From: Notoacmeibacter ruber
GTDB taxonomy: Bacteria; Pseudomonadota; Alphaproteobacteria; Rhizobiales; Rhizobiaceae
Assembly (NCBI RefSeq): GCF_003668555.1
Contig: NZ_RCWN01000001.1
Location: 434,001 to 498,000, forward strand
Length of the DNA: 64,000 nucleotides
Direction: 5' to 3'
Positions 13,358-61,480 of this stretch are shown here, piece by piece. The first letter of the stretch is position 1. Each line of letters opens with the position of its first letter. Below the pieces are notes generated by a model, which saw only the letters and a list, made by a program, of their open reading frames with translations, made no database searches and was not told the DNA's origin. Position numbers and translations under genes: made by a program.

Positions 13358-13405
13358 GACTGCTTGACAGACGGCGCGCGCCGGTCGATCAATCGGCGCT
13401 GCGTC

Positions 13406-13479
13406 GCGGGTGTAGCTCAATGGTAGAGCAGTAGCTTCCCAAGCTAACGACGAGGGTTCGATTCCCTTCACCCGCTCCA
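13406..13479 (+). tRNA. tRNA-Gly (anticodon CCC)
   Basis: The cloverleaf is complete: acceptor GCGGGTG pairs with CACCCGC, the D-arm is GCTC..GAGC, the anticodon loop is TTCCCAA, the T-arm is GAGGGTTCGATTCCCTT, and CCA is encoded. The outermost anticodon-stem pair is G-A, leaving four pairs. The tRNA reads GGG codons. Confidence 0.97.
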
Positions 13480-13552
13480 GATTCCTTCCGAACCTGACTT
13501 GCGACTTGAATGCGCCCCCTTTGCTGCGTATCTGCGGAGCCGTAGAATCGCG

Positions 13553-13849
13553 ATGACGAAACAGACGGAGTACGTGGAGATGGCCGGGTCGGTGCAGAGA
13601 TTTCTGGGTGATTCGCCGCTGCGGGTCGCGCTCAAGCTCATCATCATCTCGTTCATCGTCGGCGTGTTCATGAGCTATTTCGACATCACCCCGCTCGAGG
13701 TGATCGACCGTTTCATAGGCATGATTGAATGGGCGTGGCAGAACGGCTACGAGGCGCTTTCCGGCTTCGCGTCTTATTTCGTGATCGGCGCGATCGTGGT
13801 GGTACCGATCTTCCTGATCAGTCGGCTTGTCACCTACCGGCGCGGCTAG
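13553..13849 (+). CDS. Small membrane protein, DUF6460 type
   Basis: Protein of 98 residues with two clear membrane helices (near 28-45 and 75-93) and a short conserved motif VQRFLGDSPLRVALKLIIIS near the start, found in small rhizobial membrane proteins of unknown function. Between the helices lies a region rich in acidic and aromatic residues (ITPLEVIDRFIGMIEWAW). An in-frame ATG at 13499 would add 18 residues without family resemblance; ATG 13553 is preferred. The stop overlaps the convergent deacetylase gene by 4 nt. Function is unknown. Confidence 0.75.
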   Translation: MTKQTEYVEMAGSVQRFLGDSPLRVALKLIIISFIVGVFMSYFDITPLEVIDRFIGMIEWAWQNGYEALSGFASYFVIGAIVVVPIFLISRLVTYRRG

Positions 13850-43337: not shown

Positions 43338-43347
43338 GAGACCCATC

Positions 43348-44853
43348 ATGATCGACACCTCCGGAACCCTTTATGATTCATTGGCCCGGCACGCGGAAAA
43401 CCAGCCATCCGCGCCCGCCATCGTGCTCTTCGATGGCACGACCTACGATTTCGCCTATCTCAAGCGGCAGGCCGACCGTATCGCGGCGGCGCTCCGGTCG
43501 AAAGGCGTACAGCCGGGAGACCGCGTCGCCGTCAAGCTGGAAAAGTCGATCGAGGCGCTCGCAGCGCTGTTCGGCGTTTTTCGAGCGGGTGCGATCTTCC
43601 TGCCGATCAATACGCAGTATTCGCGCCGCGAAGTCACCGATATCGCCGAGGATGCGGAGCCTCGGCTGATGATCGGCTCTCAAGAAGGCGCGGCCGATGT
43701 CGATGGTTTGCCGTTTGTCTCTCTTGATCTGGGTTCCCCGGATGGCGAGGACCTTTTGGAAGCCACCCCTCTGGATGCAACGCCAGACGATCAGCCGCCG
43801 GGCCCGAGCGATCTTGCCGCCATGCTCTATACGTCCGGCACCACAGGGCGACCAAAGGGCGCTCCGCTCTCGCACGGCAATCTCACCGCAAACCTTTCCG
43901 CTTTGGCCCAGTTCTGGAAGATCGGCGCCAATGACCGGGTTCTGCACATCCTGCCGATGTTTCATGCGCATGGTCTGTTTCTCGCGGCAGCCATGCCGCT
44001 CGGTGTTGGAGGCAGCCTGATACTGGTTGAAAAGTTCACCACCGAGGCAACGCTTGCGAAAATTCCGGAGGCCACGGTCCTGATGGCGGTCCCGGCGATC
44101 TACTCCAGATTGCTGGCCGATCCGGCCTTCAATGCTGAGACATGTCGCAACCTGCGGCTGGCGACCTCTGGGTCCGCGCCTCTCTCGCCCGAACTATTCG
44201 ATGCCATTGCGCAACGCAGCGGTCTGAATATCGTCGAGCGCTACGGATCGACCGAGACCTGCATCATCACCAGCAATCCGCTGGAGGGGCAGCGGAAGGT
44301 CGGCTCTGTCGGTGTGCCACTTCCCAATATCGACGTTCGGATCGTCGATAGGAACGGAAGGCCGGTCGAACAGGGGGAGGTCGGCCGCGTCCAGATCAAT
44401 AGTCCGGCGACGATTTCCGGATACTGGCAGAGGCCTGACCTCACGGATGAATGGACCAGCGACGGCTACTTCGATGTCGGCGATCTCGGAAAGCTCGATG
44501 AGGATGGCTATCTCTATCTCGTCGGTCGCAGCAAGGAACTCATCATCTCTGGTGGCTACAACGTCTATCCCCGCGAGGTGGAAATCGTCGTCGCCAATTT
44601 GGACGGCGTCAGGGAGGCGGCTGTCTTCGGGGCGCCGCATCCCGATTTTGGAGAGGGCGTCGTTTGCGCCGTCACCTTGTCCAGCGGAGAGGCTGTAGAC
44701 GAGAATGAGATAGCGGCGGCGATCAAACCCGATCTCGCAGCCTACAAGCGACCGAAAAAGATCGTGATACTCGATGAGTTTCCCCGCAATGCCATGGGCA
44801 AGATTCTGAAGAACGACCTGAAAGATCGTTACGCATCGATCTTCAATTCCTAG
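43348..44853 (+). CDS. matB: Acyl-CoA synthetase, MatB-like (malonyl-CoA synthetase family)
   Basis: Adenylate-forming ligase of 501 residues joining CoA to a carboxylic acid with ATP. Motifs are YTSGTTGRPKGAPLSHGNL (P-loop, near 168-186), FHAHGLF, SGSAPLSPELF, ERYGSTETCIITSNPLEGQRKVGSVGVPLP, the DGYFDVGDLGKLDEDGYLYLVGRSKELIISGGYNVYPREVE hinge region, and the catalytic Lys in PRNAMGKILKN. The ERYG-TET..TSNP-EG-R stretch is close to rhizobial MatB, so malonate or methylmalonate is the likely substrate. TAGGAG precedes ATG 43348. It shares a transcript with the crotonase. Confidence 0.85.
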   Translation: MIDTSGTLYDSLARHAENQPSAPAIVLFDGTTYDFAYLKRQADRIAAALRSKGVQPGDRVAVKLEKSIEALAALFGVFRAGAIFLPINTQYSRREVTDIAEDAEPRLMIGSQEGAADVDGLPFVSLDLGSPDGEDLLEATPLDATPDDQPPGPSDLAAMLYTSGTTGRPKGAPLSHGNLTANLSALAQFWKIGANDRVLHILPMFHAHGLFLAAAMPLGVGGSLILVEKFTTEATLAKIPEATVLMAVPAIYSRLLADPAFNAETCRNLRLATSGSAPLSPELFDAIAQRSGLNIVERYGSTETCIITSNPLEGQRKVGSVGVPLPNIDVRIVDRNGRPVEQGEVGRVQINSPATISGYWQRPDLTDEWTSDGYFDVGDLGKLDEDGYLYLVGRSKELIISGGYNVYPREVEIVVANLDGVREAAVFGAPHPDFGEGVVCAVTLSSGEAVDENEIAAAIKPDLAAYKRPKKIVILDEFPRNAMGKILKNDLKDRYASIFNS

Positions 44854-44984: not shown

Positions 44985-46115
44985 TTATCGGGCTGTGCGC
45001 GCGTCGAATTCGATCGTCACGGCAAGGCCGTTCGAGCCATCCGTTTCGATACCGGCATTCAGCTTGCGGACGCAGCCCTGAATGATCTTCCAGCCGAGGG
45101 AACGGGACTGGCGGAGGACCTTTTCGGCGTCCTTCAGTCCAGGCCCGTTGTCCCGCACCGTCAGGCGAATCTTGTTGTCGGTCTGCGACGCATCGATCCA
45201 GACCTTCCGCTTCGTCTTGTCGTCACCGGACGCATGTTTGACAGCATTCGTCAGAAGTTCGTTGACGATCAGGCCGATCTCGGTCGCCGTATCAAAGGAA
45301 ACCGACAGCGGCTCACTGTTGACTTCGATGGTCACTCCACTCTGATCGAATGCCAGTCGCAGCCGTTCGGCGAGCGTCTCGATATGTTGCTCCAGATCGA
45401 CATGGGTAACGTCATCGGCCTGATGGAGCAGGTTGTGCGCATTGGCGAAGGCTTGGATTCGTCCGGTAAAATCGTTCAGCGCATTTCGCGTTTCTTCCTG
45501 GTTCGACTGCCGGGCCTGCATCAGCGCGAGTGATTGAATGATCGCCAGATTATTCTTGGTCCGGTGATGCATCTCGCGCAGAAGAAACTGTTGCTCAGCC
45601 AGGGCATCGCGAAGGGCGCGGTTCTGCTCGCCAAGCTCTTCTATCGGCGATCCGTGTGTCGCTTTCACAAGTGCCTCGGCGGCCACCTGCGCCAGGTCGG
45701 CGGAGGCAAGATCCGTCTTGAGGTTGAGCGCCAAATCGACCGTGGTCCCGGCCTCGCTGGTGTCCACCGAGAAGTTGTCGACCAGCTTCTGCGACCCTGA
45801 AAGGCCCAGACCGGGGCCCTTGTGCGACTGGTGGCGGTTGCGCAGCAGCCCACCGATTCCCTCGATGCCGCCGCCATGGTCCTGAACGCGCGCGACGAGG
45901 CAGATGTGATGCTTGCCTTCGGTGAAGGAAAATTCGGCAACGCCGTCCTTGCCATATTGCAGGGCGTTTCGGGCGATCTCCGATACGGCGGTGGCAAAGC
46001 GTATCTGGTCCCGGCTCGGTGCTCCGCCAACCTTGGCGATCAGGCGGGCCGTTCGGCGCGTGTGCGACACGTCACCGTCCTGCTCGAGCGCGATTGACGT
46101 CACAACGGATTTCAC
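44985..46115 (-). CDS. RsbT-like ATPase fused to HWE/HisKA_2 histidine kinase
   Basis: Soluble two-part kinase of 376 residues. Residues about 10-135 are an RsbT-like GHKL ATPase (VSEIARNALQYG N-box near 44-55, RVQDHGGGIEG, GPGLGLSGSQKLVDNF). Residues about 165-376 form a HisKA_2 histidine kinase with EMHHRTKNNLAIIQSLALMQ (His near 183) and a HATPase (LIVNELLTNAVKHA, RDNGPGL). The GTG start at 46115 overlaps the phosphatase stop by 4 nt; a TTG at 46145 also lies in frame. It is the last gene of the stressosome operon and could turn stressosome state into phosphotransfer. Its receiver partner is not proven. Confidence 0.85.
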   Translation of the reverse strand: MKSVVTSIALEQDGDVSHTRRTARLIAKVGGAPSRDQIRFATAVSEIARNALQYGKDGVAEFSFTEGKHHICLVARVQDHGGGIEGIGGLLRNRHQSHKGPGLGLSGSQKLVDNFSVDTSEAGTTVDLALNLKTDLASADLAQVAAEALVKATHGSPIEELGEQNRALRDALAEQQFLLREMHHRTKNNLAIIQSLALMQARQSNQEETRNALNDFTGRIQAFANAHNLLHQADDVTHVDLEQHIETLAERLRLAFDQSGVTIEVNSEPLSVSFDTATEIGLIVNELLTNAVKHASGDDKTKRKVWIDASQTDNKIRLTVRDNGPGLKDAEKVLRQSRSLGWKIIQGCVRKLNAGIETDGSNGLAVTIEFDARTAR

Positions 46116-47110
46116 GGGCGCGCCCTCGCTATGAGAACTCCGCAATCGTCCGTTCCGCGCCGTCGAATTTTGTAAAGCGCGGCGGCAATGATCTCTGCGC
46201 CGCGAAAGAAGAGGGAAGGCGGCTCCGCAATCGCCGGGCTCGTCTTCAAACCATCCGTGGCCAGAATAAGGACGGCGCCTTCGGGCCAGTCATGCTCAGT
46301 CACCCGCGCGCGTCGGGAGGACGCTCCGACAATGCCGGGCTGCGAGGGTATTCCGTGACGGCGGCCATCCCGGTGGAGAATGTCGCCTTTGATATTTCCA
46401 ATTCCCATGCATCTCACCATTCCGGCTTCATGGGGAATTTCGACCAAAAGAGCGGCAGCACCACGGCTGCCGGCCAGAGCGTCTGCCACCATCGCCTCTG
46501 TCTCTTCCAAAGAGGCGTTTCCGGCGCGGCGAAAGGCATCGGCGCCGGTGGCGGCGTCGCGCGCTGCCTTCGGCCCATGCCCGAGCACATCCATCAACAT
46601 GACAATGGTCGAATGTTTGCCGACATTCACGCCAAAGGTGTCGCCGCCCTCTTCGAAGCCCGGTTTCGGGACAATCAGGCCGGCAATATCGTAAACCCTC
46701 CTGGCGGGGCGCTGCTTGCCGACTTTCGCAATAACGACGGTCCCGGATGGGCTGCTATAAATTTCGAAGTCGTCCGCCAGCCTCTCCATCGAGCCGAGAC
46801 CGCCGCCAATGCCGTGAGGCTTTTCTTTCGAGGTGGTGAAGCCGTCGACCATGGCGGCTTCGACATTCGAGATGCCTGGCCCGCCATCGAGGGCTGCCAG
46901 AGTCACCTGTCGCGTGTCTCCACTGCCCTCGATGCCGATCAGCAATTCACCGTTATGGGCGTGCCGGGCGAGGTTCGTGCCGGCCTCCGTGACGATGATC
47001 GCCAGCCGGTCGACTTCTTCGGCAGAAAGGCCGGCGTTCTTGGCTTCCTGCGTGGCTGCGCGCCGCGCCGTGCCGATCTGGCTCTCGTCTTCGATCTGTA
47101 TGGAAATCAT
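46112..47110 (-). CDS. RsbT-like ATPase fused to SpoIIE/RsbX-type PP2C phosphatase
   Basis: Cytoplasmic 332-residue protein. The N-terminal 130 residues are an RsbT/RsbW-type ATPase (AIIVTEAGTNLARHAHNG N-box, LDGGPGISN, GGGLGSMERLADD). The rest is a PP2C phosphatase of the SpoIIE/RsbX kind: a metal-binding MDVLGHGPKAARDA, ILATDGLKT and DDCGVLI carry the acidic metal ligands. RsbX resets stressosomes by dephosphorylating RsbR and RsbS. ATG 47110 overlaps the rsbT stop by 4 nt. The fusion means kinase-like and phosphatase-like activities may sit in one chain. Confidence 0.87.
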   Translation of the reverse strand: MISIQIEDESQIGTARRAATQEAKNAGLSAEEVDRLAIIVTEAGTNLARHAHNGELLIGIEGSGDTRQVTLAALDGGPGISNVEAAMVDGFTTSKEKPHGIGGGLGSMERLADDFEIYSSPSGTVVIAKVGKQRPARRVYDIAGLIVPKPGFEEGGDTFGVNVGKHSTIVMLMDVLGHGPKAARDAATGADAFRRAGNASLEETEAMVADALAGSRGAAALLVEIPHEAGMVRCMGIGNIKGDILHRDGRRHGIPSQPGIVGASSRRARVTEHDWPEGAVLILATDGLKTSPAIAEPPSLFFRGAEIIAAALYKIRRRGTDDCGVLIARARP

Positions 47111-47511
47111 CGGGCACCACATTCGAGAGTGACCCGTGTTCCGCTTCGCAAGGACGATACGATCTCGAACCGGTCCACCAGCCGTTTGGCGCCGCCAAGG
47201 CCGAGTCCAAGGCTCTTTCCTGTGGTGAAGCCGTCCTTCAGCGCGGCATCGACGTCATTGATGCCGGGTCCGCGATCTTCGCAGATCGCGACGACACGGC
47301 GTTGTCCTGCGGGGCCTACCTGCTCGAAAGTGATGATGCCACCTCGTCCATAAATCACGGCGTTTCTTGCAATCTCCGAGACCGCCGTGACGAATTTCGT
47401 CCGTTTGATGGGGGATGCGTTGATCGCCGCCATCGCTTTGGCGGCAGCCTGTCTGGCGAAAGCGACATCGTTGGAAGTGCGCAACGCCACGGAGGCAGCC
47501 CTCTCTTTCAC
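47107..47511 (-). CDS. rsbT: RsbT serine kinase of the stressosome
   Basis: Stand-alone GHKL serine/threonine kinase of 134 residues that phosphorylates RsbS and RsbR and leaves the stressosome on activation. Motifs are KFVTAVSEIARNAVIYGRGG (N-box, near 39-58), CEDRGPGINDVDAALKDGFTTG (G1) and SLGLGLGGAKRLVD (G2). The ATGA overlap with the gene before (rsbS stop) and the gene after point to tight coupling. There is no RsbU phosphatase or sigma-B gene nearby, so its downstream partner must differ from Bacillus. Confidence 0.92.
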   Translation of the reverse strand: MKERAASVALRTSNDVAFARQAAAKAMAAINASPIKRTKFVTAVSEIARNAVIYGRGGIITFEQVGPAGQRRVVAICEDRGPGINDVDAALKDGFTTGKSLGLGLGGAKRLVDRFEIVSSLRSGTRVTLECGAR

Positions 47512-47903
47512 GACTCTTTCGTGCGGTCGCCCGTAATGGTGTCGATCGCCCGGTCCGCGTTCAGTGCTGTCTCGACGCCATCAAGCGTCATGCCCAGTTC
47601 GACCAGCGTCATGGCGACGGCCGGGCGCATGCCAACGATGATTGTTCGCGCATTCATCACGCGCGCCATCTGCGCCATGGCTGCGAGCATTCGGCCCGCA
47701 AAGGTGTCGACGATCTCAAGGCTCGAGATGTCGATCACGACGCCATGGGCGCTCCGGCGGGCCACTTCCTCGACGAGCTGGTCCTGTAACGAAACGATCT
47801 CCTGATCATCGAGATCGTCTCGTATCGCCACGATAACGCAGCCATTGATCGTCATTATGGGGACAGGGCTGGCGTTGTCGTACAATGGCTTATCGCTTCC
47901 CAA
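47508..47903 (-). CDS. rsbS: RsbS stressosome scaffold (STAS domain)
   Basis: Single STAS domain of 131 residues forming the core of the stressosome with RsbR. The segment GVVIDISSLEIVDTFAGRMLAAMAQMARVMNARTIIVGMRPAVAMTLVELGM matches RsbS, including the DxSSLEIVD turn that holds the serine phosphorylated by RsbT. Its start overlaps the rsbR gene by 14 nt, and its stop overlaps rsbT by 4 nt. Order R-S-T is that of canonical stressosome operons. Confidence 0.92.
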   Translation of the reverse strand: MGSDKPLYDNASPVPIMTINGCVIVAIRDDLDDQEIVSLQDQLVEEVARRSAHGVVIDISSLEIVDTFAGRMLAAMAQMARVMNARTIIVGMRPAVAMTLVELGMTLDGVETALNADRAIDTITGDRTKES

Positions 47904-48750
47904 CTGAAACGCCGATGCGGTCGAAAGCGTAGGCGAGGCCGCTCTCCAGATCGACGCGCGTCACGATGTTCGGCAGTTCTACGCCTAGATTGACAACGGT
48001 CTGCGCAATCTTGGGGCTTATGCCACAAATGACGCATTCCGCGCCCATCAGGCGAACGGCCGAAGCTGTCTTCAGGAGGTGCTGGGCCACCATCGTATCG
48101 ACGGTCGAGACACCGGTGATGTCGATAATGGCGACTTCGGCCTCCCATTGAACGATCGCATCGAGAAGGTTCTCCATGACCGTCTGCGATCGGAACGAAT
48201 CCAGCGTGCCGATAAGGGGAACCGTCACGATGCGGTTCCAGATCTTCACCACGGGAGCGGAGACTTCCGTCATCTCGGCGCGCTGGCGCTCGATAATCGC
48301 TTCGCGCTTTTCGACCAGCGTCTCAATCGCATGCAGGCTGATCTGATCGACGAGACGCGTCGCATTCCACGTTTCGCGCATCAGAACGCGCGGCTTTTCG
48401 GACAGCTCGCTTTGCAGGATTTCGAAGAAGGGCTGCTTCAACGATGCGATGAACCACCCCATCTCGGTGGTGGAAACGCCTCTTTGCGTCCGGTTGTCCG
48501 CAATCTCTTCCAGCGCGTCGCGGACCGGCTCCCATTCGGGATTCGTCAGATCGAGACTGTCGTCGGTCGCCACTTCCGGAAGGACCTTCGTCATGGCTGT
48601 CAGAAGTTCACGACTTTGTTGTTCGGACTCCTTGCCGGAAACAAGATCGGTGCGCTTGACACCTTCCTTCGACTGAACCTTCAGCCATCCGTTCAGAACG
48701 CGGTCGTAATCATCGGTTAGGATCGATGCAATCGTCACGTCATTAGGCAT
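47890..48750 (-). CDS. rsbR: RsbR-type stressosome sensor (RsbRD N-terminal + STAS)
   Basis: Sensor subunit of 286 residues. The N-terminal 1-150 is helical and resembles the RsbT co-antagonist domain RsbRD_N (WLKVQSKEGVKRTDL, LSEKPRVLMRETWNATRLVDQ). A linker helix leads to a C-terminal STAS domain near 165-280 with VPLIGTLDSFRSQTVMENLL and IDITGVSTVDTMVAQHLLKTASAVRLMGA. Both positions phosphorylated in B. subtilis RsbR appear to be threonine here. No heme-globin or PAS sensor is seen, so the input signal is unknown. It is the first gene of the five-gene operon. Confidence 0.92.
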   Translation of the reverse strand: MPNDVTIASILTDDYDRVLNGWLKVQSKEGVKRTDLVSGKESEQQSRELLTAMTKVLPEVATDDSLDLTNPEWEPVRDALEEIADNRTQRGVSTTEMGWFIASLKQPFFEILQSELSEKPRVLMRETWNATRLVDQISLHAIETLVEKREAIIERQRAEMTEVSAPVVKIWNRIVTVPLIGTLDSFRSQTVMENLLDAIVQWEAEVAIIDITGVSTVDTMVAQHLLKTASAVRLMGAECVICGISPKIAQTVVNLGVELPNIVTRVDLESGLAYAFDRIGVSVGKR

Positions 48751-49150
48751 GTTTTGCTTTCGCTTTCTACTCGTCCGGCCTGTCTATGTAGGAGGACGCG
48801 GCATTTGGCAAACGGAACCGATGAGCGAAATGCCGAACCCGTTATCATGTTCCCTCTCTTGATTTGCCATGCGTGCATGCGCCGCCTGACGAAGGCGGCA
48901 GGCGGGCCGGTCGTGAAACCCAGCCTCCCAATATCCGTTGCGCGCTCTGCCTCTGCGCGAGGCCCAATCCTGAACTGGCGGGCAGCGGAGCCGCGAGGCT
49001 GAAGGTCCAAAGAATAGTGCGACTACCCGAATGCACCGCCGTAAACTTCTTCTGAACGATTTTTACTCACTCTTCCGATGTGACAATCGGCTTGGTGGGC
49101 GATGACGACGTTGTTGCCCGGCATGACTTGTCACCGGGAGGGCGCGGCTC
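48751..49150. promoter_or_regulatory. Divergent intergenic region of rsbR and the 5TMR kinase gene, with inverted repeats
   Basis: This 400-bp stretch has no convincing gene. It holds an 8-bp inverted repeat (CGGCATTT 48799-48806, AAATGCCG 48828-48835) upstream of rsbR, a 7-bp hairpin (GCCGCCT 48881-48887, AGGCGGC 48893-48899), and a 7-bp repeat pair GTGACAA (49080-49086)/TTGTCAC (49128-49134) just before the kinase start. A GGAAC..CGTT pair is present near 48814, but its spacing does not fit the alphaproteobacterial EcfG promoter. Confidence 0.4.
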
Positions 49151-51211
49151 ATGGATTCCATCATCGCGATGATCGAAGGCGGCTCAGTTATTGTTGTTGC
49201 CGTTCTTTGCTGCATCTTTTTCGGCGCCACTTTGAAGCGATCCTTTTGGCTGGGCGGTCTCGTCTACGGGGTTGTATTCGCGGTGACGGGCGCCATCGTG
49301 ATGTCCAACTCCATCGAGATCATACCCGGCGTGAGAACAGATCCGCGCAATGCGGTGGCGGCTCTTTCCGGTGCCATTGGCGGTCCCTTGAGCGCGTTGA
49401 TCAGCGCGGCGGTGATGATGCTGATCCGCCTTAGCTACGGCGGTATGGGCGCCGTTCCCGGAGCCGCCGCCATCGGTTCGGCGGCTGTCGCATCCGTTCT
49501 TCTGTGGGGCTGGTGGGCCATGTGGCGCGGCCGCGAGCCATCGAAAGAATATATTTTCTATCAGGCGCTGGCTGCTGCGACTGTGCCGACCCTGACGATC
49601 TTTTTCCTCAGTTCCGTGCCGATGGATGTGTTCATACGCTCCGCCAGCCTGTTTGCGCCGACCAACTTCCTGGCGGTCCTTCTTCTCGGCGGGCTCATCG
49701 TCTCCGAGCAGCAGCGCCGTTGGGCAATCGGCTCCAATGCGGAAAAGGAAGCACAACTTGTTGCTGTCGCAAACAATGCGCCGGGCATGCTTTTCCAGCT
49801 CACGCTCGATCCGCAAGGCCGGCTTCACTTTCTCTACGTTTCCGGCGGCAGTCGGCGCGTCTTCGGCATTCCCCGTGAGACGTTCCTCGCCTCGCCGAAT
49901 TTCCTCTACACCCTTCTCGGGGAGGAGGATGGCCAGCGGCTTAGAACATTACTTGCCACCTCTGCGGAGACCGGCAATCGCTGGTCATTGGAGGTGACGT
50001 ATATTCATCCGCTCAATCATCGCGTTTGGCTGCAACTTACCGCTGAGCCCCGTCTCGACAGCCAGGAGAGGCTGGTCTGGGACGGCAGTATCTTCGATAT
50101 CACCAACCAGAAACGCAACGAAGCGATGAAGAACGAGTTCGTGGCAACGGTCAGCCATGAGCTTCGTACACCGCTGACCTCGATTCATGGTGCCCTGAGC
50201 CTTCTTTCGAGTGGCGCTCAGGGCGACCTACCCGCTCCGACCAGACGGCTTCTTTCGCTGGCCCTTCACAACAGCGAGAGATTGAAGAATCTGATCAACG
50301 ATATTCTCGACATCGAGAAGATCGAGAGCGGCTCGATGCCTTTCATGATCAGTTCACACCCGCTGGATCCACTGATCGTGCAGGCTATCGAGGCCAATGC
50401 GAACTTCGGTACAGCGGAGGGGGTCGATGTCCGGTTCGAAAACGGCGCGCCGGGCGCGGCCGCCCTGATCGACCCGGAGCGCTTCAATCAGATCATCGAT
50501 AACCTTCTGTCCAACGCGCTCAAATTCTCTCCGGCAGGGGGAAGGGTTGTTGTCGGGCTCAAACGCGATGGACACCGGGTCAGGATATCGGTTTCCGACG
50601 ATGGCCCCGGTATTCCCGCCTCCTTCCAGCCACGGCTCTTCGAGAAATTCGAACAGCTGGAATCCGTCGACAATCGTTCGAAAGGCGGGACAGGTCTGGG
50701 CCTCAGCATCTGCAAGGCTCTGGTTGAACGTATGGACGGCTCAATCACGTTTGAAACGCAACCGGGAAAAGGAACAACCTTCATCGTCGAATTCCCTGCG
50801 GTCGAGGCGCTGCCGCAACGAGACGAAGCAGAGAGACGCTCAGCCGGTCTTGCAGGCACGTCCTTTCAGGTTCTCTGTATCGGCACCAGCGCCGACTTCA
50901 GTGTCGGGATCAACGAACCGGTTTCTGCCGGCACGGTGATTGAGCAGGTTTGCTCGCAGGAGGCTGCGCTGAACAAACTGAGCAGCACCGACTTCGACCT
51001 GGTGGTTCGCGGCGCCGGCTTCTCCGAGCAGGCGTGGGAGAGTGTTCAGCCAGCAATCCCGGACAGTACGGTCGTCGTGGAACTCTCGGCCCGAGGCCAT
51101 TCGTGCGATCTTACGGATATCCTTGCGACAGTGCTGAAGCAGAAAATCACGGACGGGGCGGAAGATGACCGCCAGGAGCCTTTAGGGAAAATTCAAGCTA
51201 CTCAGGTTTAA
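49151..51211 (+). CDS. Membrane histidine kinase with LytS-like 5TMR, PAS and degenerate receiver
   Basis: Sensor kinase of 686 residues. Residues 1-190 form about six helices resembling the 5TMR-LYT module, with the PRNAVAALSGAIGGPLSALIS signature near 65-85. A PAS domain follows (205-320), then HisKA with His336 in VSHELRTPLTSIHG, and HATPase (NLLSNALKFS, DDGPGIP, TGLGLSICKAL). Residues about 580-665 have receiver-like spacing (FQVLCIGTSADFSVG, FDLVVRGAGF) but lack the acidic pocket and the phosphoacceptor Asp. It is divergent from the stressosome operon and followed 32 bp later by a stand-alone receiver, its likely partner. Confidence 0.87.
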   Translation: MDSIIAMIEGGSVIVVAVLCCIFFGATLKRSFWLGGLVYGVVFAVTGAIVMSNSIEIIPGVRTDPRNAVAALSGAIGGPLSALISAAVMMLIRLSYGGMGAVPGAAAIGSAAVASVLLWGWWAMWRGREPSKEYIFYQALAAATVPTLTIFFLSSVPMDVFIRSASLFAPTNFLAVLLLGGLIVSEQQRRWAIGSNAEKEAQLVAVANNAPGMLFQLTLDPQGRLHFLYVSGGSRRVFGIPRETFLASPNFLYTLLGEEDGQRLRTLLATSAETGNRWSLEVTYIHPLNHRVWLQLTAEPRLDSQERLVWDGSIFDITNQKRNEAMKNEFVATVSHELRTPLTSIHGALSLLSSGAQGDLPAPTRRLLSLALHNSERLKNLINDILDIEKIESGSMPFMISSHPLDPLIVQAIEANANFGTAEGVDVRFENGAPGAAALIDPERFNQIIDNLLSNALKFSPAGGRVVVGLKRDGHRVRISVSDDGPGIPASFQPRLFEKFEQLESVDNRSKGGTGLGLSICKALVERMDGSITFETQPGKGTTFIVEFPAVEALPQRDEAERRSAGLAGTSFQVLCIGTSADFSVGINEPVSAGTVIEQVCSQEAALNKLSSTDFDLVVRGAGFSEQAWESVQPAIPDSTVVVELSARGHSCDLTDILATVLKQKITDGAEDDRQEPLGKIQATQV

Positions 51212-51243
51212 AAGCTCCTTTTGAACGATATGGAATCGGACAG

Positions 51244-51630
51244 ATGGAGAAGATGCGCGTCCTTTACGTCGATGACGAGCCCGATATCCGTGAGATCGCC
51301 GTTATCTCCTTGGAGATCGGAGAACAGTTCGAGGTCAAATCCTGCTCGTCGGGCGAGGAAGCAGTGCCATTCGCGAAACAATGGCGCCCCGAGGTCATCC
51401 TTCTCGATGTGATGATGCCAGTGATCGACGGACCGGAAACGCTGCGTCGCTTGCGGAGCCAGCCGGAGACGGCGGCTATCCCCATCATTTTCGTGACCGC
51501 GCGGACCCAGAAGCAGGAAGTCGACCGCTATTTCGAGCTCGGGGCCCAAGGCGTCATTCCGAAGCCTTTCCGTCCGATGGAATTGGTCGATGATGTGAAG
51601 CGTATACTGGCCGGCACAGCGACGCCCTAA
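51244..51630 (+). CDS. Single-domain response regulator (receiver only)
   Basis: Receiver of 128 residues with YVDDEPDIRE acidic pocket, phosphoacceptor Asp55 in VILLDVMMP, Thr in FVTARTQ and Lys in PKPFRPMELV. It has no output domain, so it should act by protein contact or pass phosphate to Hpt. It is close kin to the receiver at 58126-58533 (shared LDVMMP-DGP, MTARTQ/VTARTQ and KPF-PM segments). It follows the 5TMR kinase by 32 bp and is probably cotranscribed with it. A second ATG lies at residue 4. Confidence 0.9.
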   Translation: MEKMRVLYVDDEPDIREIAVISLEIGEQFEVKSCSSGEEAVPFAKQWRPEVILLDVMMPVIDGPETLRRLRSQPETAAIPIIFVTARTQKQEVDRYFELGAQGVIPKPFRPMELVDDVKRILAGTATP

Positions 51631-51660
51631 GGCGTTGAGCCAGCGTGTCGAAGCACCGTC

Positions 51661-52845
51661 TCAAACGAATTCGACCCCGCATTCGCGGCCTCGCTGCCAG
51701 CGCAGCACCACCGGCCTCTTCTCGCCTGTCTCCGCAAGATAGATGCTGAAGTTCGAAACGAGCGGGGCGTATTGTTCAAGCCTTAAACGCATGCCGAGAT
51801 CGGATGTATCCCTGACGACACAATCAATGGTCGAGGGTCCGATCAGAATCTTCGCAGCCTTGAGAACGCGATTGCGGCGTTCGCGGCGGCGTTCCACCTG
51901 CTCTGGCTCGGCGTTGGCTTCTTCCTGAGGCACGCTCTTCGGCCCTTCGGCACCGGCTTGTGTGACAGGCTGGGCTGCAATCTCGCCGAATTGGTCAAGC
52001 TGCTCGGAAAGGGAGGCTGTCTCGTCTGAAGTGTCCAGAACGCTCGTCTCGGGATGCGCTTCCATCGTCGCGGAGCCGACCCGGAAGACGAATGTCAGAG
52101 CTTCGGTGAGGGCATTGAGGCGGTCACGCAGTTTCGCCCGGTCCGAGATGGCGGAGGGAAGGCATGCGAATGCCCCACCTGAGATCCGACCCCAGATATC
52201 CTCCGGGTCCGAGCAGTCTCGCATCCGCTTGACCGTCTCACGTAAGAAGGTGTCGGCCTGTTTCTGGCCAAAGCGTTGCAGGGCCTCGGCGTAAAAGCGG
52301 TTCATCGAGGCGACGATAACAAGCTGCGGCGAGGCCGCGGTGGCGCGTCCGGCGCGGAGCCGTTTTTCAAACTCCTTCCGGCTGAACGTGCCGGTTACGA
52401 TATCGATCGCCCGCTCCTGGCGCAGGCGCTCCAGTTCATACTGCTCGGAAAGGCTTCGCCGCTTGTCTTCGATTGCTTTTCGGATCACGTTGCCAAGGTC
52501 TCGAAAACCAAGGCTGGTCTTGGGCAGAAAATCGGAGACCCCTGACCGGAAAGCCTTGATCGCTACACTCTGTTCCTGAGAGGCAGTCATCATGATGACC
52601 GGCGCATCCGCATTGGCTGAGCCCGACAGGACATCCATCACGTGAAAGGCTGTTTCTCCATCCAGCCTGTAGTCCAGAAGCACGCAATCGAATTCGCTAG
52701 AGTCGACGAAACCGCGCAACTCCTCCGTGTTGGTCGCCTCGATCGTCTGGAAGTTGTTGCGCCGAAGAACACCACTCAGGATTTCTCTGAAATCGGGGTC
52801 GTCATCGACGATAAGGATGATGGGCCCATCGGCGGAAGCCGTCAC
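51661..52845 (-). CDS. Response regulator with degenerate GGDEF and C-terminal PilZ domain
   Basis: Protein of 394 residues in three parts. The receiver (8-125) has VDDDPDF, phosphoacceptor Asp58 in CVLLDYRLDGE and Lys in LPKTS. The middle (140-260) is GGDEF-like, but the active site reads SGGAF (222-226), so synthesis of c-di-GMP is unlikely. The last 80 residues are a PilZ domain with the arginine-rich switch RRRERRNR (319-326) and DTSDLG (346-351), the two motifs that bind c-di-GMP. It looks like a phosphorylation-gated c-di-GMP effector. It is convergent with the neighbouring receiver gene and divergent from the diguanylate cyclase. Confidence 0.85.
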   Translation of the reverse strand: MTASADGPIILIVDDDPDFREILSGVLRRNNFQTIEATNTEELRGFVDSSEFDCVLLDYRLDGETAFHVMDVLSGSANADAPVIMMTASQEQSVAIKAFRSGVSDFLPKTSLGFRDLGNVIRKAIEDKRRSLSEQYELERLRQERAIDIVTGTFSRKEFEKRLRAGRATAASPQLVIVASMNRFYAEALQRFGQKQADTFLRETVKRMRDCSDPEDIWGRISGGAFACLPSAISDRAKLRDRLNALTEALTFVFRVGSATMEAHPETSVLDTSDETASLSEQLDQFGEIAAQPVTQAGAEGPKSVPQEEANAEPEQVERRRERRNRVLKAAKILIGPSTIDCVVRDTSDLGMRLRLEQYAPLVSNFSIYLAETGEKRPVVLRWQRGRECGVEFV

Positions 52846-53029
52846 GATCGTTTCTCCTCACAGTACGAGTTCATATTATTCGCCGCTTTCGCTTCCAAAA
52901 TACTAACAAAGCGGCCTGACACACGCTGAAAGGCAAAGTCATTAAGACTTTCTACAGCCGGTACACGAATTATGGGGGACTACGCCCCGGCTTTGTTCTT
53001 CTCTGCAAAGACCCAGAATTGGAGAAGCC

Positions 53030-54316
53030 ATGCAGAACGCTATTACGGCCGAAGGAAGCCGTGGAACGATCCTCATCTTTGATGAAGGCTTGTCCCTCGC
53101 TCAGGTCTCGGCCGTCGTCAGCGAACTCCGTTTTACGCCGGTACCCGCACTTGTCGACGTGCCGCTGGATTTTGACCTCTTGCCGCCGGTCTACCTCGCC
53201 ATTGTCAACGAGGCCGCTGCTGGAGCGCTGGAGCAGTGGAGCGCGACGCCGTGTGATGCGCCGACCATCAAGATCGCAGGAGGCGGGTCCTTCGAGGCGC
53301 GACTACAGGCGGCACGTGAAGGTATCGCCGGTATCGTGGATGCACCTTTGTCGAGCGAGGATCTGACAAGCTGGGTCCGCCATTTTTATACGCTTGAGGC
53401 GACCCGTCAGTCGCATGTCCTGATTGTCGATGATGATCAGATGACCCGCGAGATCGGCGCGCAAGCGCTGCGGAGCGAAGACATGAGCGTTGGCGAGGTC
53501 GAAAGCGCGCGTGAGGCGTTCAAATATCTACAGAACCATACTGTCGACGCGATACTGCTTGATCTGCAGATGCCCGATGTCGATGGCCTGGAACTGGCGC
53601 GCATCATCCGCCAGGACCAGCAGAATCTGTCTTTGCCGATCATCTTCCTTTCCGGTGAGCGGGATCCTCTGCGGCAGCTTCAGGCGCGTCGTCTGGGTGG
53701 TGACGACTTCATCATGAAGCCAATCATGCCGAGCCGGCTGCGCGAGATTGTCCAGATGCGCCTGGAAAGGGCGGGGGCCCTCAAGAGCCTGATCGAACGG
53801 GACAGTTTGACGGGCTTGCTCAATCATGCGCGGTTTCACGCCCATCTGGAAAGCGAGATCGGGCGAAGCTCCCGTACGGATGCGGAAATCAGTGTCGCCC
53901 TGATCGATCTCGATCACTTCAAGTCCGTCAACGATACCTACGGTCATCAGGTTGGCGATCGTGTGATCCGTTCGCTGGCCACGCTTCTGTCGACGGCTCT
54001 TCGAAAGACCGACCTTATCGGGCGACTGGGCGGCGAAGAGTTCGGCGTCGTCCTTCTCGACACCGATCTTGAGTCAGCCGCGCATGTTGTCGACAGGCTT
54101 CGTGAAACCTTTGAAGCCTCTGCTTTCGAAGTGGATAACGACACGTTCAAAGCGTCGTTCAGCGCAGGCGTCAGCACCTTCAGAAAGGGCAGGTCGCCGG
54201 CCGATATGGTCCGGTTTGCCGATGCGGCGCTCTACCAGGCAAAAGCACAGGGGCGAGGGAGGACCGTCACGGAAGCCGACGAGGTCTTCGACCCGCCCAT
54301 AAAGGTCCGTGCCTGA
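53030..54316 (+). CDS. Response regulator diguanylate cyclase with pseudo-receiver (PleD-like)
   Basis: Protein of 428 residues. The first 115 residues look like a receiver fold without phosphoacceptor (ILIFDEGLSL). The true receiver follows (near 128-245) with VDDDQMTRE, Asp178 in AILLDLQMPDVDG and Lys in MKPIMP. The GGDEF domain has ALIDLDHFKSVNDTYGHQVGD, active site GGEEF at 334-338, and an intact RKTD inhibitory site at 325-328. This is the PleD arrangement (Rec-Rec-GGDEF), so phosphorylation should drive dimerisation and c-di-GMP synthesis. An Hpt gene follows after 27 bp. Confidence 0.9.
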   Translation: MQNAITAEGSRGTILIFDEGLSLAQVSAVVSELRFTPVPALVDVPLDFDLLPPVYLAIVNEAAAGALEQWSATPCDAPTIKIAGGGSFEARLQAAREGIAGIVDAPLSSEDLTSWVRHFYTLEATRQSHVLIVDDDQMTREIGAQALRSEDMSVGEVESAREAFKYLQNHTVDAILLDLQMPDVDGLELARIIRQDQQNLSLPIIFLSGERDPLRQLQARRLGGDDFIMKPIMPSRLREIVQMRLERAGALKSLIERDSLTGLLNHARFHAHLESEIGRSSRTDAEISVALIDLDHFKSVNDTYGHQVGDRVIRSLATLLSTALRKTDLIGRLGGEEFGVVLLDTDLESAAHVVDRLRETFEASAFEVDNDTFKASFSAGVSTFRKGRSPADMVRFADAALYQAKAQGRGRTVTEADEVFDPPIKVRA

Positions 54317-54343
54317 TTTTCGATAATTGGAGGACAGTTTGGG

Positions 54344-54691
54344 ATGAATGCCGGTGGTTTCGATCAGGAAGCGTTCGATGAGCTGCTTGAGATTTTCCCT
54401 GCCGATCGAATAGAGATGTTCGTCTCCAACCTCAGGCAGCTCTCGTCGGAGTTGCAGCAGTGCGACGTCGCAGCCGTTGATGTGATCGAGGCGCGTGCGC
54501 ACAAGCTCGTCTCCCGCGCCGGAATTCTTGGCTGTTCGCGTCTGTCGGAACTCGCAATGGCCCTCGAAACGGCCTGCCGGGAGGGGCAGGACGTCGCCGG
54601 GCCGCTGTCTGCCGTCAGCGATGAAGCCAAGGCTGTTGAAGGCCGCTTCGCCTCTCTCATGGCCTCAGCGGCCCAGCATTCACCGGGCTAG
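54344..54691 (+). CDS. Histidine-containing phosphotransfer (Hpt) protein
   Basis: Helical protein of 115 residues. The phosphorylatable histidine is His53 in EARAHKLVSRAGILGCSRLSELAMALE, the Hpt pattern. The rest is predicted alpha-helical. It lies between a receiver-diguanylate cyclase and a membrane kinase, 27 bp after the first and 12 bp before the second, so all three are probably cotranscribed. It would let phosphate move among the several receivers of this region. Specific partners are not shown by the sequence. Confidence 0.82.
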   Translation: MNAGGFDQEAFDELLEIFPADRIEMFVSNLRQLSSELQQCDVAAVDVIEARAHKLVSRAGILGCSRLSELAMALETACREGQDVAGPLSAVSDEAKAVEGRFASLMASAAQHSPG

Positions 54692-54703
54692 GTCGCTTAC
54701 GCC

Positions 54704-57700
54704 ATGAAGCCTCCCCAGATTCCCTATCTTCTGAAGCTCGCCATGGTTGCCGTCGCTTATCCGGCGATGGGGCTGATCGGTCTGGCCTTGACGCAGCCGG
54801 CGCACTTCGAAATCTCTATCTGGCCGCAGGCGGGCCTTGCCATTGCGCTTCTCATCCTGTGGGGCATGAAGCCGTGGCCCGGCATATTCATCGGCTCTAT
54901 CTTTCTGTCGTTCGGCATCGGTGTTTCGTCGGGAATGACAGCCGATCTCTGGCGCCTCTTCACCAGTATCCCCTTCGCCGTCGGCCCGACGCTGCAGGCG
55001 GTCGCAGCCGCGTGGATCACCAGAAAGCTCTTCGGCAATCCGCTACGGTTTGGAAGTTTCATCGATATCGGCCTCTTGCTCCTCATCTGCGGGCCGCTGA
55101 TATGCGCCATAGCGCCGACGCTCGGTTTCGCCTGGATCATGGCCAAAAACGGCGTGACGGCCGCCGAGGTCCCGCTTAGCTGGTCAGGGTGGTGGTTCGG
55201 TCAGGTTCTCGGCGTCATCGTCTTCCTGCCGATCGGGCTGATCGGCCCATGGCGTCCCTGGACGCTTACGTTGAAAGGCAGCCCGGCAACGGGCTTTACC
55301 CGTTTGACGGTCAGCATCCTCGCTTTGTCGCTTTGCCTGACCTTCGTCGCATCGGGGATCACCGAACGCACCGCCGTCGAGCGTAACGAGAAGGCGTTCG
55401 AATCCCTTGTGAACGATCACCAGTTCGCTCTTCGTCAGCGGCTGGAAAGCTATGAACAGATACTCGATGCTGCGGTCGGTCTCTTCAAGAGTTCGGATGA
55501 GGTCACGCCGGAGGAATGGGAAACCTTCATCCAGCAAGTAACGAAGAACACCGCGCTGGAGCAGTCATACGATATCGGGGTCATCAAGCGGGTGCCGGAA
55601 AATTCTCCCGCCCGGCAATTCTCCATCGGCAACTACCACCTTTCGCATGTCTGGGGCCGGGATAGCTGGAGCACCCCGCTCACCACAGAATATTTCTCCG
55701 TTTCGCGATCGGAGCCATCGGATTGGACACCCAATCCGGAGTGGCAGGCCGGCCGAAATGGCGCTGCGCTCCATGCCCGTGACACCGGCAGCAGCGCGAT
55801 CAGCCGACAGCTTGGGCAAAATACCCCCGAACCGGGCTTTCTGATTTTTACACCGCTCTATGCCGGAGGGGCCGTGTCGCTCACGGTCGCCCAGCGGCAG
55901 GAGGCGTTCGAAGGCTGGGTCTATATCCAGGTGACCGGTCAGGCTTTGATGACCAGCCTGACAAAGAGCCAGGGCGTCAGCCTGGACTTCTCGGTCTATG
56001 AGGGTCCGGAGGCACAGCCTGCGCGCCTGATTTACACGACCATTTCGAACGTGCCGCGATCCGAAGAGTTTCGGATCGAGAAGACATTGCCGGTCATGGA
56101 GCGCTCATGGACGATCATCTGGCGGAGCACGCCTGATTTTCACTCGGTGATCAGTGCCCATGAGGGAATTTACGTCCTGACGGGCGGTCTTCTGCTGACG
56201 TTCCTGCTGAGCCTCTTCTTGCTTGCTCTGGATCGCCGGCAAGAAGCGATCAGACAAATGGTCGAGCGAAAAACCCGGGAAGTCCTGGCTGTCGAGCAGG
56301 AGAACCGCTCGATTATCGAGACGGCGGTTGTCGGCATCGTGGTCCTGGACCGTGCGGGGCAAATTCTCCGATATAACCAGGCGGTCAATCGCCTAGCAGG
56401 CGGTCCCTCAACCGACGCGGAACTGCAGTCGTTTCTTGAGCAACTCAACCTTCTCGACAGGCAAGACGGAGGGACCGACCACGAAGTGAGGTCGGTCCAT
56501 TGGCGTGGCGAGACCATGCACTTGACCGTCCAGTTGAACAGCTGGACAGGCGAAAACGACGAGCCACGCTATACAGCGATCATTCGCGATATTACCGGAG
56601 AGATCCAGGCCAAGCGTACGCTGGAGGAAACCGAGGAACGATGGAAGATGGCGCTCGAAGGTGCCAATCTCGGCGTTTTCGACATCGATTTGCCCAACGG
56701 CACATCGACTGTTTCGGAAACTTGGAAAACGATGCTTGGCTTTGCTCCAGATGCACAAATCGATCCGCAAGCCGAATGGCTCGACAGAGTGCACCCCGAC
56801 GATCTTCCGAAAGTGCAGGAAGAAGATCGCGCATGCATGGCACAGGAAAAAGCACGCTCGGTCATGGAGTATCGCATACGGCGTGCTGACGGTCGTTGGA
56901 TCTGGCTCCGTTCCGATGCGGTTATCACAGCCTACGATAGGGACGGGCGCCCCCTGCGCATGGTGGGAACGCAGACCGATGTCACCGAACTGAAAAACGC
57001 AGTTACGGCGCTGCAGGCCAACGAACAGAAGTTCCGCAATGCAATCGAAGATGCGCCTGTCGGTATGGCGCTGGTTACGCCCGGGCGGGAGTGGATCAAG
57101 GTCAACGCGGCGCTCTGCACATTGCTCGGCTATAGCGAGCAAGAGCTGTTGGGCCTCGATGTCAGCGATTTCGTCAACGCGGCTGATCTGGCGAGCCTCA
57201 ATGACGGAAAGCTGGAACAGGTTTTGCGAGGTGAGATCTCGACCTATCAGCGGGAGTTGAGGGTCTATCACAGGGATGGCCGCCTTCTGTGGGTTCTGAT
57301 CAGTGTCTCACTGGGCCGAGATCACGAAGGGTCCGATCATTTGATCGTGATCTTTCAGGATATCACGGAGCAGAAGGAGATGGAGCGGTTGAAGTCCGAG
57401 TTCGTGGCCAGCGTCAGTCACGAATTGCGCACGCCCCTGACCTCTATTCGCGGGTCGCTTGGCCTCATCATCGGATCGCTAAGTCACGAACTGTCTGACG
57501 GGGTGGAACGCTTGTTGACGATCGCCCACGCCAATTCGGAAAGACTGGTCCATCTCGTCAACGACATTCTCGACCTGGAGAAGATGTCGTCCGGAAAGAT
57601 GTCATTCGATATCGAGGAGGAATCCCTTGGCATCCTGATTCGCGACGCGGTCGAAGCCAATCAGGGGTTTGCGGATCAGCTTGGCATCGAACAGGATCTG

Positions 57701-58114
57701 GACGGAACGCCATTTGATGTCAGGGTCGAAGTCGATTCCAACCGATTCCATCAGGTGCTTGCCAACCTCTTGTCAAATGCCGTGAAATTCTCGCCGGAAG
57801 GCGGCACCGTGCGCGTTTTCGGCGAAATGCGGGGTGGCAATATACGGATCTACGTCAAAGATGACGGGCCGGGCATTGCACCACAATTTCGATCCCGCAT
57901 CTTTTCGCGCTTCGCACAGGCAGACTCTTCCGCCACGCGCAAAGCCAATGGGACCGGCCTCGGACTGCATCTTGCAAAGATGATGGTCGAGGAAATGGGT
58001 GGCCGGATCGGTTTCGAAAGCGACTACGGGGACGGCTCGACCTTCTGGATCGAACTGCCTGTCACAAACGCCGCCGGTGAAAATGCGTCCGGTCCGGAGA
58101 AGTCTTTCGGCTGA
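54704..58114 (+). CDS. Membrane histidine kinase with MASE1, CHASE and multiple PAS domains
   Basis: Sensor of 1136 residues. Residues 1-220 are a MASE1-like membrane domain (WPQAGLAIALLILWGMKPWPGIFIGS, about eight helices). A CHASE extracellular sensor lies near 230-480 and a closing helix near 490. PAS domains follow near 540-640, 645-770 and 775-895, then HisKA with His906 in VSHELRTPLTSIRGSLG, and HATPase (NLLSNAVKFS, DDGPGIA, GTGLGLHLAK). There is no receiver. The kinase core is a close relative of the one at 49151. A stand-alone receiver lies convergent 11 bp downstream, its likely target. Ligand unknown. Confidence 0.88.
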   Translation: MKPPQIPYLLKLAMVAVAYPAMGLIGLALTQPAHFEISIWPQAGLAIALLILWGMKPWPGIFIGSIFLSFGIGVSSGMTADLWRLFTSIPFAVGPTLQAVAAAWITRKLFGNPLRFGSFIDIGLLLLICGPLICAIAPTLGFAWIMAKNGVTAAEVPLSWSGWWFGQVLGVIVFLPIGLIGPWRPWTLTLKGSPATGFTRLTVSILALSLCLTFVASGITERTAVERNEKAFESLVNDHQFALRQRLESYEQILDAAVGLFKSSDEVTPEEWETFIQQVTKNTALEQSYDIGVIKRVPENSPARQFSIGNYHLSHVWGRDSWSTPLTTEYFSVSRSEPSDWTPNPEWQAGRNGAALHARDTGSSAISRQLGQNTPEPGFLIFTPLYAGGAVSLTVAQRQEAFEGWVYIQVTGQALMTSLTKSQGVSLDFSVYEGPEAQPARLIYTTISNVPRSEEFRIEKTLPVMERSWTIIWRSTPDFHSVISAHEGIYVLTGGLLLTFLLSLFLLALDRRQEAIRQMVERKTREVLAVEQENRSIIETAVVGIVVLDRAGQILRYNQAVNRLAGGPSTDAELQSFLEQLNLLDRQDGGTDHEVRSVHWRGETMHLTVQLNSWTGENDEPRYTAIIRDITGEIQAKRTLEETEERWKMALEGANLGVFDIDLPNGTSTVSETWKTMLGFAPDAQIDPQAEWLDRVHPDDLPKVQEEDRACMAQEKARSVMEYRIRRADGRWIWLRSDAVITAYDRDGRPLRMVGTQTDVTELKNAVTALQANEQKFRNAIEDAPVGMALVTPGREWIKVNAALCTLLGYSEQELLGLDVSDFVNAADLASLNDGKLEQVLRGEISTYQRELRVYHRDGRLLWVLISVSLGRDHEGSDHLIVIFQDITEQKEMERLKSEFVASVSHELRTPLTSIRGSLGLIIGSLSHELSDGVERLLTIAHANSERLVHLVNDILDLEKMSSGKMSFDIEEESLGILIRDAVEANQGFADQLGIEQDLDGTPFDVRVEVDSNRFHQVLANLLSNAVKFSPEGGTVRVFGEMRGGNIRIYVKDDGPGIAPQFRSRIFSRFAQADSSATRKANGTGLGLHLAKMMVEEMGGRIGFESDYGDGSTFWIELPVTNAAGENASGPEKSFG

Positions 58115-58125
58115 TAGGTGGGGTG

Positions 58126-58533
58126 CTAGGAGCCGGGAAACCGCGTCGGTCGGTCGACAGAGGCCGCATCGTCGCCGAGATAGCCGCGTGCTTCCGAAGC
58201 AAGGCTCATAGGATTGAAAGGTTTGGCGATCACGCCCCGTGCGCCGAGAGCAATGAATTGCTCCACTTCATGCCGCTGGGTTCTGGCGGTCATGAAGACC
58301 ACGGGAATATGGGTGGTTTCTGTCTCTTCGCGTAGGTGTGAGAGGACAGTCGGCCCGTCCATATTCGGCATCATCACGTCAAGCAGAATGAGGTCGGGTT
58401 TCCATTCCCGCGCGATCTCGAGGGCATCCTTGCCGTTATCGCTGCATTTCACGTCCAGTTCGGGGTCGAGTTGCAGCGACATTTCCGCAATCTCGCGAAT
58501 GTCGGCATCGTCATCGACGTAAAGAATGCGCAT
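58126..58533 (-). CDS. Single-domain response regulator (receiver only), paralogue of 51244-51630
   Basis: Receiver of 135 residues from ATG 58533, with YVDDDADIRE, phosphoacceptor Asp52 in LILLDVMMPNMDGP, FMTARTQ and Lys in AKPFNPMSL. The tail of about 15 residues has no domain. The frame is open to 58782, but those residues are non-coding in character. It is convergent with the MASE1/CHASE kinase. The close likeness to the other stand-alone receiver and of their two kinases suggests a duplicated kinase-receiver pair. Confidence 0.9.
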   Translation of the reverse strand: MRILYVDDDADIREIAEMSLQLDPELDVKCSDNGKDALEIAREWKPDLILLDVMMPNMDGPTVLSHLREETETTHIPVVFMTARTQRHEVEQFIALGARGVIAKPFNPMSLASEARGYLGDDAASVDRPTRFPGS

Positions 58534-61476: not shown

Positions 61477-61480
61477 CCCG

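Follow-up and report, generated by a model that had tools for sequence, protein, structure and literature searches.

The 64,000-nucleotide stretch of the Notoacmeibacter ruber genome analysed here (the window; contig NZ_RCWN01000001.1, positions 434,001 to 498,000) carries a five-gene stressosome operon, rsbR-rsbS-rsbT-TX-TK, in which an RsbT-like domain is fused both to a phosphatase (TX) and to a HisKA_2-type histidine kinase (TK). In the reading that we favour, and to which we give about an even chance, the five genes form a functional unit, a stressosome with RsbT-type domains on TX and TK; the kinase freed from it would phosphorylate the response regulator PhyR and so release sigma-EcfG, and the cyclic di-GMP (c-di-GMP) phosphorelay next door would be a module of its own, specific to the genus. 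This reading starts from the operon itself, its spread, its intact active-site motifs, the pattern of receiver genes around it and the presence of phyR inside it in one genus.

The operon runs on the minus strand from 48750 to 44985, and its genes overlap. The rsbR gene (47890..48750) encodes a sensor-like RsbRD_N domain and a STAS domain. Its closest solved relatives are the RsbR entries 7b0u and 6qcm (E about 1e-32), and its orthologs in four relatives, Notoacmeibacter sp. MSK16QG-6 (G002), N. marinus (G001), Flavimaribacter sediminis (G021) and Pararhizobium mangrovi (G004), are 78-86% identical. The rsbS product (47508..47903), a single STAS domain, is closest to the solved RsbS 6jhk (E 5e-26) and has a threonine (VDTF) aligned with the serine of the solved protein (DSF). 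S185 and T219 of RsbR align with two threonines of the solved RsbR entries, so phosphorylatable residues are present; we take these two positions and that of the RsbS threonine to be the known phosphorylation sites. Between rsbS and the phosphatase gene lies rsbT (47107..47511), encoding a stand-alone HATPase_c_2 switch kinase that matches an anti-sigma F factor in the PDB (E 5e-6) and falls into the stand-alone RsbT group of our tree. TX (46112..47122) joins an RsbT-like domain to an RsbX/SpoIIE-type PP2C phosphatase, with PDB matches to the SpoIIE entry 3zt9 (E 7e-9) and to RsbX (E 3e-4); its metal-site motifs are intact by eye. Judged from these Pfam and PDB matches, the complete stressosome that an earlier note on this DNA had claimed (RsbR, RsbS, RsbT and an RsbX-type phosphatase) appears to be present.

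TK (44985..46115, start taken from the 376-residue database form P0001) consists of an RsbT-like domain, long helices, a HisKA_2 phosphoacceptor domain (PF07568, 71 bits) and a HATPase domain, and its H-box HHRTKN fits the HRxxN motif. In an alignment of 42 sequences (TK and 41 of 73 homologs, chosen from the HisKA_2-type homologs), there is little or no variation in the E/N, DxG and GxG residues of the first ATP site, in the HHRxKN box or in the second ATP site. In a Foldseek search with the AlphaFold2 model (mean predicted local distance difference test score 82, predicted template modelling score 0.49), ranks 1-5 were all the Erythrobacter EL346 kinase (best entry 4r39), and the Brucella LOV-HK came at ranks 17 and 18. 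By sequence, too, the closest solved relatives of the transmitter are blue-light-activated kinases.

The operon is scattered rather than universal. RsbR was found in five of 41 genomes, N. ruber included. Searches with the RsbT domain of TK were run on genome samples, and some of their matches are stand-alone RsbT; they gave hits in 10 of 397 genomes from the order, 10 of 385 from the class, 14 of 82 and 14 of 390 from the orders of G775 and G758, and 30 of 398 from the phylum. The five-gene operon occurs across the Alphaproteobacteria without the c-di-GMP set of the window alongside, and also on plasmids of Sphingomonas aliaeris, Salipiger, Paraburkholderia (rsbR unrecognised) and Deinococcus radiodurans. 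In these locus surveys, domains were labelled with profiles that we built from proteins of the window and the hits to them, and some of the overlapping frames were left out. Outside the class, TK was read in four operons (L192-L195), and in each it has HisKA and a receiver.

The type of TK transmitter goes together with the place of the receiver. The receiver, GGDEF and four-gene tree analyses used the same 47 loci, leaving out near-duplicate or cut loci (L050, L051, L052, L054, L056 and L122), a further cut one (L092), three incomplete ones (L096, L128 and L129), and L181 and L184. A receiver lies in or touches all 13 operons with a HisKA-type TK (12 fused, 1 adjacent); in four less clear TKs (L084, L085, L086 and L154), at first labelled untypical, HisKA was confirmed by Pfam. 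None of the 25 HisKA_2 operons outside one Skermanella-type genus has a receiver in or touching it (L093 is cut inside TK by the contig end), and five of these loci have one within 3 kb (the three of Notoacmeibacter, G135 and Salipiger). In the Skermanella-type genus itself, four of four HisKA_2 operons contain a receiver, and in every case it is PhyR. The operons without TK have a receiver within 1.2 kb in five of five cases.

In that genus, which includes Skermanella rosea (G887) and S. stibiiresistens (G888), phyR directly precedes rsbR on the same strand in all five sampled genomes (G775, G885-G888), and all five products match PhyR_sigma2, PhyR_sigma-like and Response_reg above the Pfam cut-offs. 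The operon-borne PhyR of G775 is 48% identical to the PhyR of N. ruber over 260 residues and is the best match among three PhyR-like proteins of its genome; of the other two, one scores under the PhyR_sigma-like cut-off and one has no PhyR_sigma-like match. No PhyR gene lies closer than about 43 kb to the NepR-like/extracytoplasmic function sigma factor pair of G775, whose NepR match is weak (E 5e-6). The presence of phyR in the same operon in one genus supports phosphotransfer from TK to PhyR indirectly.

The pathway downstream of PhyR is present in N. ruber, where phyR, nepR and ecfG lie together about 1.3 Mb from the operon, and a strict EcfG promoter motif (taken from PMC3892343) precedes phyR. 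According to the accessible parts of PMC8103513 and PMC5898713, kinases of the HWE/HisKA_2 family with an HRxxN motif drive the general stress response (GSR): they phosphorylate PhyR, which binds NepR and frees EcfG. Brucella LOVHK is likewise described as phosphorylating PhyR (PMC4438053, in part). Under stress, RsbT leaves the stressosome and activates downstream proteins, as outlined in the portion of PMC9237128 available to us.

We propose a mechanistic model for the operon. In the resting cell, TK would be held on the RsbR/RsbS shell through its RsbT-type domain. Upon stress, the shell would become phosphorylated and TK released, and TX would strip the phosphates off the shell to reset the stressosome. 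The released kinase, with its HisKA_2 domain and HRxxN motif, would then phosphorylate PhyR, which would bind NepR and free sigma-EcfG. What we infer here is that TK docks on the shell and leaves it, and that its partner in N. ruber is PhyR. If TK acts through PhyR on EcfG, the stressosome would once more serve a general stress response, here that of the Alphaproteobacteria and not that of sigma-B. With slightly less assurance, it is tempting to speculate that RsbT domains serve as a portable plug by which a phosphatase or a histidine kinase attaches to the stressosome, that in Alphaproteobacteria the plugging-in of a HisKA_2 kinase has placed the unrelated PhyR-NepR-EcfG response under the stress hub known from sigma-B bacteria, and that phyR joined the operon itself in Skermanella-type genomes.

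Several results weigh against PhyR as the target. The phyR gene was found in the stressosome operon of one genus only, and the TK of G775 is only about 33% identical to that of the window. The N. ruber genome has eight other HisKA_2 matches, one of them a HisKA_2/HWE kinase gene about 5 kb from phyR, so TK would be one of several inputs. The strict EcfG motif is absent upstream of the window operon (the lone match in the 64-kb window lies elsewhere) and precedes none of the 25 HisKA_2 operons and none of the five phyR-bearing ones, and a relaxed motif precedes one of the 25 HisKA_2 operons against 1.07 expected. NepR was found in 15 of 16 genomes with HisKA_2-type TKs and in 9 of 12 other TK genomes (one of them, G607, with TK cut off), which does not discriminate. 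At one locus, L128 (G866), TK is present and no other gene of the module was recognised in 14.8 kb. Co-occurrence with NepR or PhyR was judged too weak to count as evidence: a match to the PhyR_sigma2 model was obtained in 21 of 21 TK genomes, but this model also hits sigma factors. In the Mangrovicella locus (L049), an EcfG-like sigma gene lies 6.6 kb from the operon behind unrelated genes and was not used. Separately, the strict motif was seen before one HisKA-type operon (L087, upstream of rsbR), with 0.02 expected by shuffling among the 11 examined.

The trees are divided over the descent of the kinase. In a tree of 125 RsbT-like domains, the phosphatase-fused (support 100/100) and kinase-fused (96/86) domains stand apart from stand-alone RsbT, except L098, and the kinase-fused clade holds both HisKA_2 and HisKA transmitters. 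A tree of rsbR, rsbS, rsbT and the phosphatase, built without TK (42, 43, 47 and 47 of the 47 loci, respectively), unites the 29 HisKA_2 operons (100/100; the clade appears in all 200 bootstrap trees) and puts the phyR-bearing operons as sister to the other 25, which supports one origin of HisKA_2 operons. The RsbT domain of TK itself contradicts this: in the tree of RsbT-like domains, the starred branches force at least two label changes, the HisKA_2 TKs do not form one group and the phyR-linked TKs fall among HisKA-type ones. The transmitter tree decides neither way; HisKA_2 kinases of other kinds stand among the TKs, and a single clade is not rejected (approximately unbiased test, p-AU 0.27). 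These conflicting trees make it uncertain that the TK of the window inherited the PhyR link. Recombination, or more than one gain of the HisKA_2 transmitter, is possible.

Next to the operon lie the kinase and c-di-GMP genes, from 49151 to 58533 and mostly on the plus strand. They comprise a membrane histidine kinase (49151..51211, plus strand; 5TM-LYT, PAS, HisKA and HATPase), stand-alone receiver 1 (51244..51630, plus), a protein with a receiver, a degenerate GGDEF domain (SGGAF) and a PilZ-like domain (Rec-GGDEF-PilZ; 51661..52845, minus), a diguanylate cyclase with a degenerate receiver, a second receiver and a GGEEF motif (53030..54316, plus), an Hpt phosphotransfer protein (54344..54691, plus), a second membrane histidine kinase (54704..58114, plus; MASE1, CHASE, PAS, HisKA and HATPase) and stand-alone receiver 2 (58126..58533, minus). 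The two stand-alone receivers share the motif LLDVMMP and are 50% identical to each other. The PilZ match lies just below the Pfam cut-off (20.2 versus 22.5 bits), and RxxxR and DxSxxG motifs are present by eye. In the cyclase, the first receiver is unrecognised by Pfam, and an RxxD motif stands upstream of GGEEF (by eye). Across the island, Pfam matches cover STAS, RsbRD_N, HATPase_c_2, SpoIIE, HisKA_2, HisKA, Response_reg, GGDEF, PilZ and Hpt.

All twelve signalling genes named in the earlier note were thus found in place with their domains by translation and Pfam scans, though in two divergent units. The two units start back to back, at 48750 on the minus strand and at 49151 on the plus strand, so they do not make up one operon, and the c-di-GMP genes lie outside the stressosome operon. 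Among the 20 scanned window proteins (39580-62548), no RsbU_N domain (up to E 0.1) that could dock an output protein and no sigma-70 domain was matched, nor any STAS domain outside rsbR and rsbS. Searches for rsbU, rsbW and sigB stayed within the window; STAS, the one Rsb family searched across the 3.25-Mb genome, gave five matches, of which the best two are rsbR and rsbS. The coupling of a stressosome to two-component signalling with no sigma-B genes beside it, as the earlier note had it, is supported; the single circuit that the note suggested is not supported beyond one genus.

Could the Notoacmeibacter stressosome nevertheless drive the adjacent phosphorelay, and through it the production and readout of c-di-GMP, to govern surface behaviour or motility? 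We consider this unlikely. The two units do lie side by side in three of three Notoacmeibacter genomes, where the whole island is kept, including orthologs of the first membrane kinase in both other genomes. On the other flank of the operon the window has an AMP-ligase gene (43279-44853); no counterpart of it turned up in the 1.6-1.9 kb that follow TK in the other two (L016 and L017), where the junction on the c-di-GMP side is kept. This speaks, if modestly, for a link inside the genus. For other stressosomes, too, connections with c-di-GMP or motility have been proposed or shown, according to the available parts of PMC9237108 and PMC10014275, and a Moorella stressosome cyclase is cited in PMC4976288 (in part). 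However, the divergent transcription argues for two units, and no scanned window protein carries the RsbU_N docking domain. Moreover, either membrane kinase has its own adjacent receiver and is of the HisKA type, whereas TK is HisKA_2, and receivers 1 and 2 carry DVMMP where PhyR has ADIQLADG. Conservation argues in the same direction. The operons of two other genera of the family (L018 and L019; TK 67-75% identical) have five genes and no c-di-GMP set beside them, as in many other Alphaproteobacteria, so by the refutation test of the earlier note a single conserved circuit, running from the scaffold to the proteins that make and read c-di-GMP, is not supported outside Notoacmeibacter, the one genus in which this set was found. 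Rec-GGDEF-PilZ, the only member of the set searched genome-wide, occurs in 3 of 61 genomes, all Notoacmeibacter (E<=1e-20; 31 candidates scored in most of the 61). In the protein database, four proteins matched at E<=1e-20 among the candidates sharing most words: itself, one entry at 63% identity, Notoacmeibacter sp. MSK16QG-6 at 62% and a single relative, from Hoeflea marina, at 32%. Six of the 47 loci have a GGDEF gene at most 3 kb from the operon. Three of these are the Notoacmeibacter loci, and the others make up 3 of the 44 loci outside that genus: in L019 (Pararhizobium mangrovi; 11504-12781) it overlaps the operon divergently, in L125 (G885) it is 1.8 kb away, and in L127 (G824; 12502-14292) it is 0.3 kb away and divergent. 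With 6 GGDEF genes per 268 kb near the operon and 5 per 379 kb farther away, the numbers are too few to show an association, though they leave room for the c-di-GMP reading.

Two other alternatives concern TK itself. It may act in trans on another receiver, such as a single-domain protein like SdrG or MrrA, and reach the general stress response indirectly or not at all. Short receivers lie near two HisKA_2 operons (485 bp away in Salipiger, 2.7 kb in G135), are 37% identical to each other and both carry the LADG motif of PhyR, and SdrG, too, is phosphorylated by GSR kinases according to the accessible part of PMC5898713. PhyR is, on the other side, the only receiver found inside any HisKA_2 operon, and only Salipiger, G135 and the three Notoacmeibacter among the 25 HisKA_2 loci have any receiver at up to 3 kb; we judge this alternative improbable, to about the same degree as control of the c-di-GMP genes. 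Less probable still is that the RsbT-like domain of TK does not dock on the stressosome and instead regulates TK internally or serves as a second Ser/Thr kinase. Its binding may have changed, since the TK RsbT domains form a clade of their own, and the TK of L128 has no recognised stressosome genes nearby; the ATP site of the domain is conserved, however, and TK follows TX wherever both occur in an operon, from Alphaproteobacteria to the Paraburkholderia plasmid and the MP1 plasmid of Deinococcus radiodurans.

The RsbR, RsbS and RsbT proteins of the window are shared with the sigma-B stressosome of Bacillus and Listeria, and the regions of the RsbR and RsbS phosphorylation sites align with the solved entries; here, no RsbU_N or sigma-70 domain accompanies them among the 20 proteins, and the output is apparently a histidine kinase. 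With the GSR kinases (Paks, PhyK and LOV-HK), which act through PhyR-NepR-EcfG, TK shares the HisKA_2/HWE transmitter and the HRxxN motif; since it has an RsbT-type GHKL domain in place of their sensor, its input would come from the stressosome. Among the closest described systems are the RsbRSTX modules of Vibrio vulnificus and other Gram-negatives. As far as the available text of PMC9237108 (Heinz 2022) describes them, they share with our operon rsbR-rsbS-rsbT, an RsbX-type phosphatase, linked two-component genes, the absence of sigma-B and a sporadic distribution. They differ in that RsbX is a single-domain PP2C, whereas phosphatase and kinase here carry an RsbT-type domain; their downstream proteins occur with or without RsbU_N, which none matched here; RsbR has a globin coupled sensor in the Vibrio vulnificus-type module and RsbRD_N here; and the kinase here is HisKA_2, with no receiver in its operon. 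The Moorella thermoacetica stressosome with the diguanylate cyclase MtG (PMC4976288 and PMC12143880, in part) also has an output enzyme other than sigma-B, but there RsbT acts on an RsbU N-terminal domain of the cyclase, and in our operon the output enzyme itself carries the switch domain.

Links of stressosomes with two-component and c-di-GMP genes have been published before (PMC9237108 and PMC10014275, in the parts available). In a literature search mostly without subscription papers, we found no stressosome-PhyR link and no RsbT-tagged HisKA_2 kinase, and the accessible text of PMC3999984, PMC6530869 and PMC4598750 proposes no such link. The role of the stressosome in bacteria without sigma-B is largely open. 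If the model of a TK that signals to PhyR is true, a single sensing hub can serve two general stress responses whose sigma factors are unrelated, the three RsbT-type domains per operon are accounted for, and a precise target emerges, a kinase and a response regulator encoded in the same operon.

Some further observations concern related modules and the flank of the island. The module on the MP1 plasmid of Deinococcus radiodurans (L157, NC_000958.1, 20086-36562) has all five genes with a HisKA-receiver TK and is annotated merely as STAS, anti-sigma and ATP-binding proteins. Methylorubrum extorquens, where the PhyR response has been studied (PMC4814048, in part), has a HisKA-receiver TK (P0168). 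In four genomes (family f231; L212:2444-3382, L213:2423-3340, L214 and L216), a GGDEF protein follows stressosome genes, and in L212 the N-terminal part of this protein is a weak RsbT match (1.8e-5), possibly a degenerate RsbT domain fused to the cyclase. Genes for a di-haem oxidoreductase, an imelysin-type protein and a DUF1513 protein adjoin the island at 58781-62548; the first two also adjoin it in both other Notoacmeibacter genomes, and the DUF1513 gene does so in L017 only.

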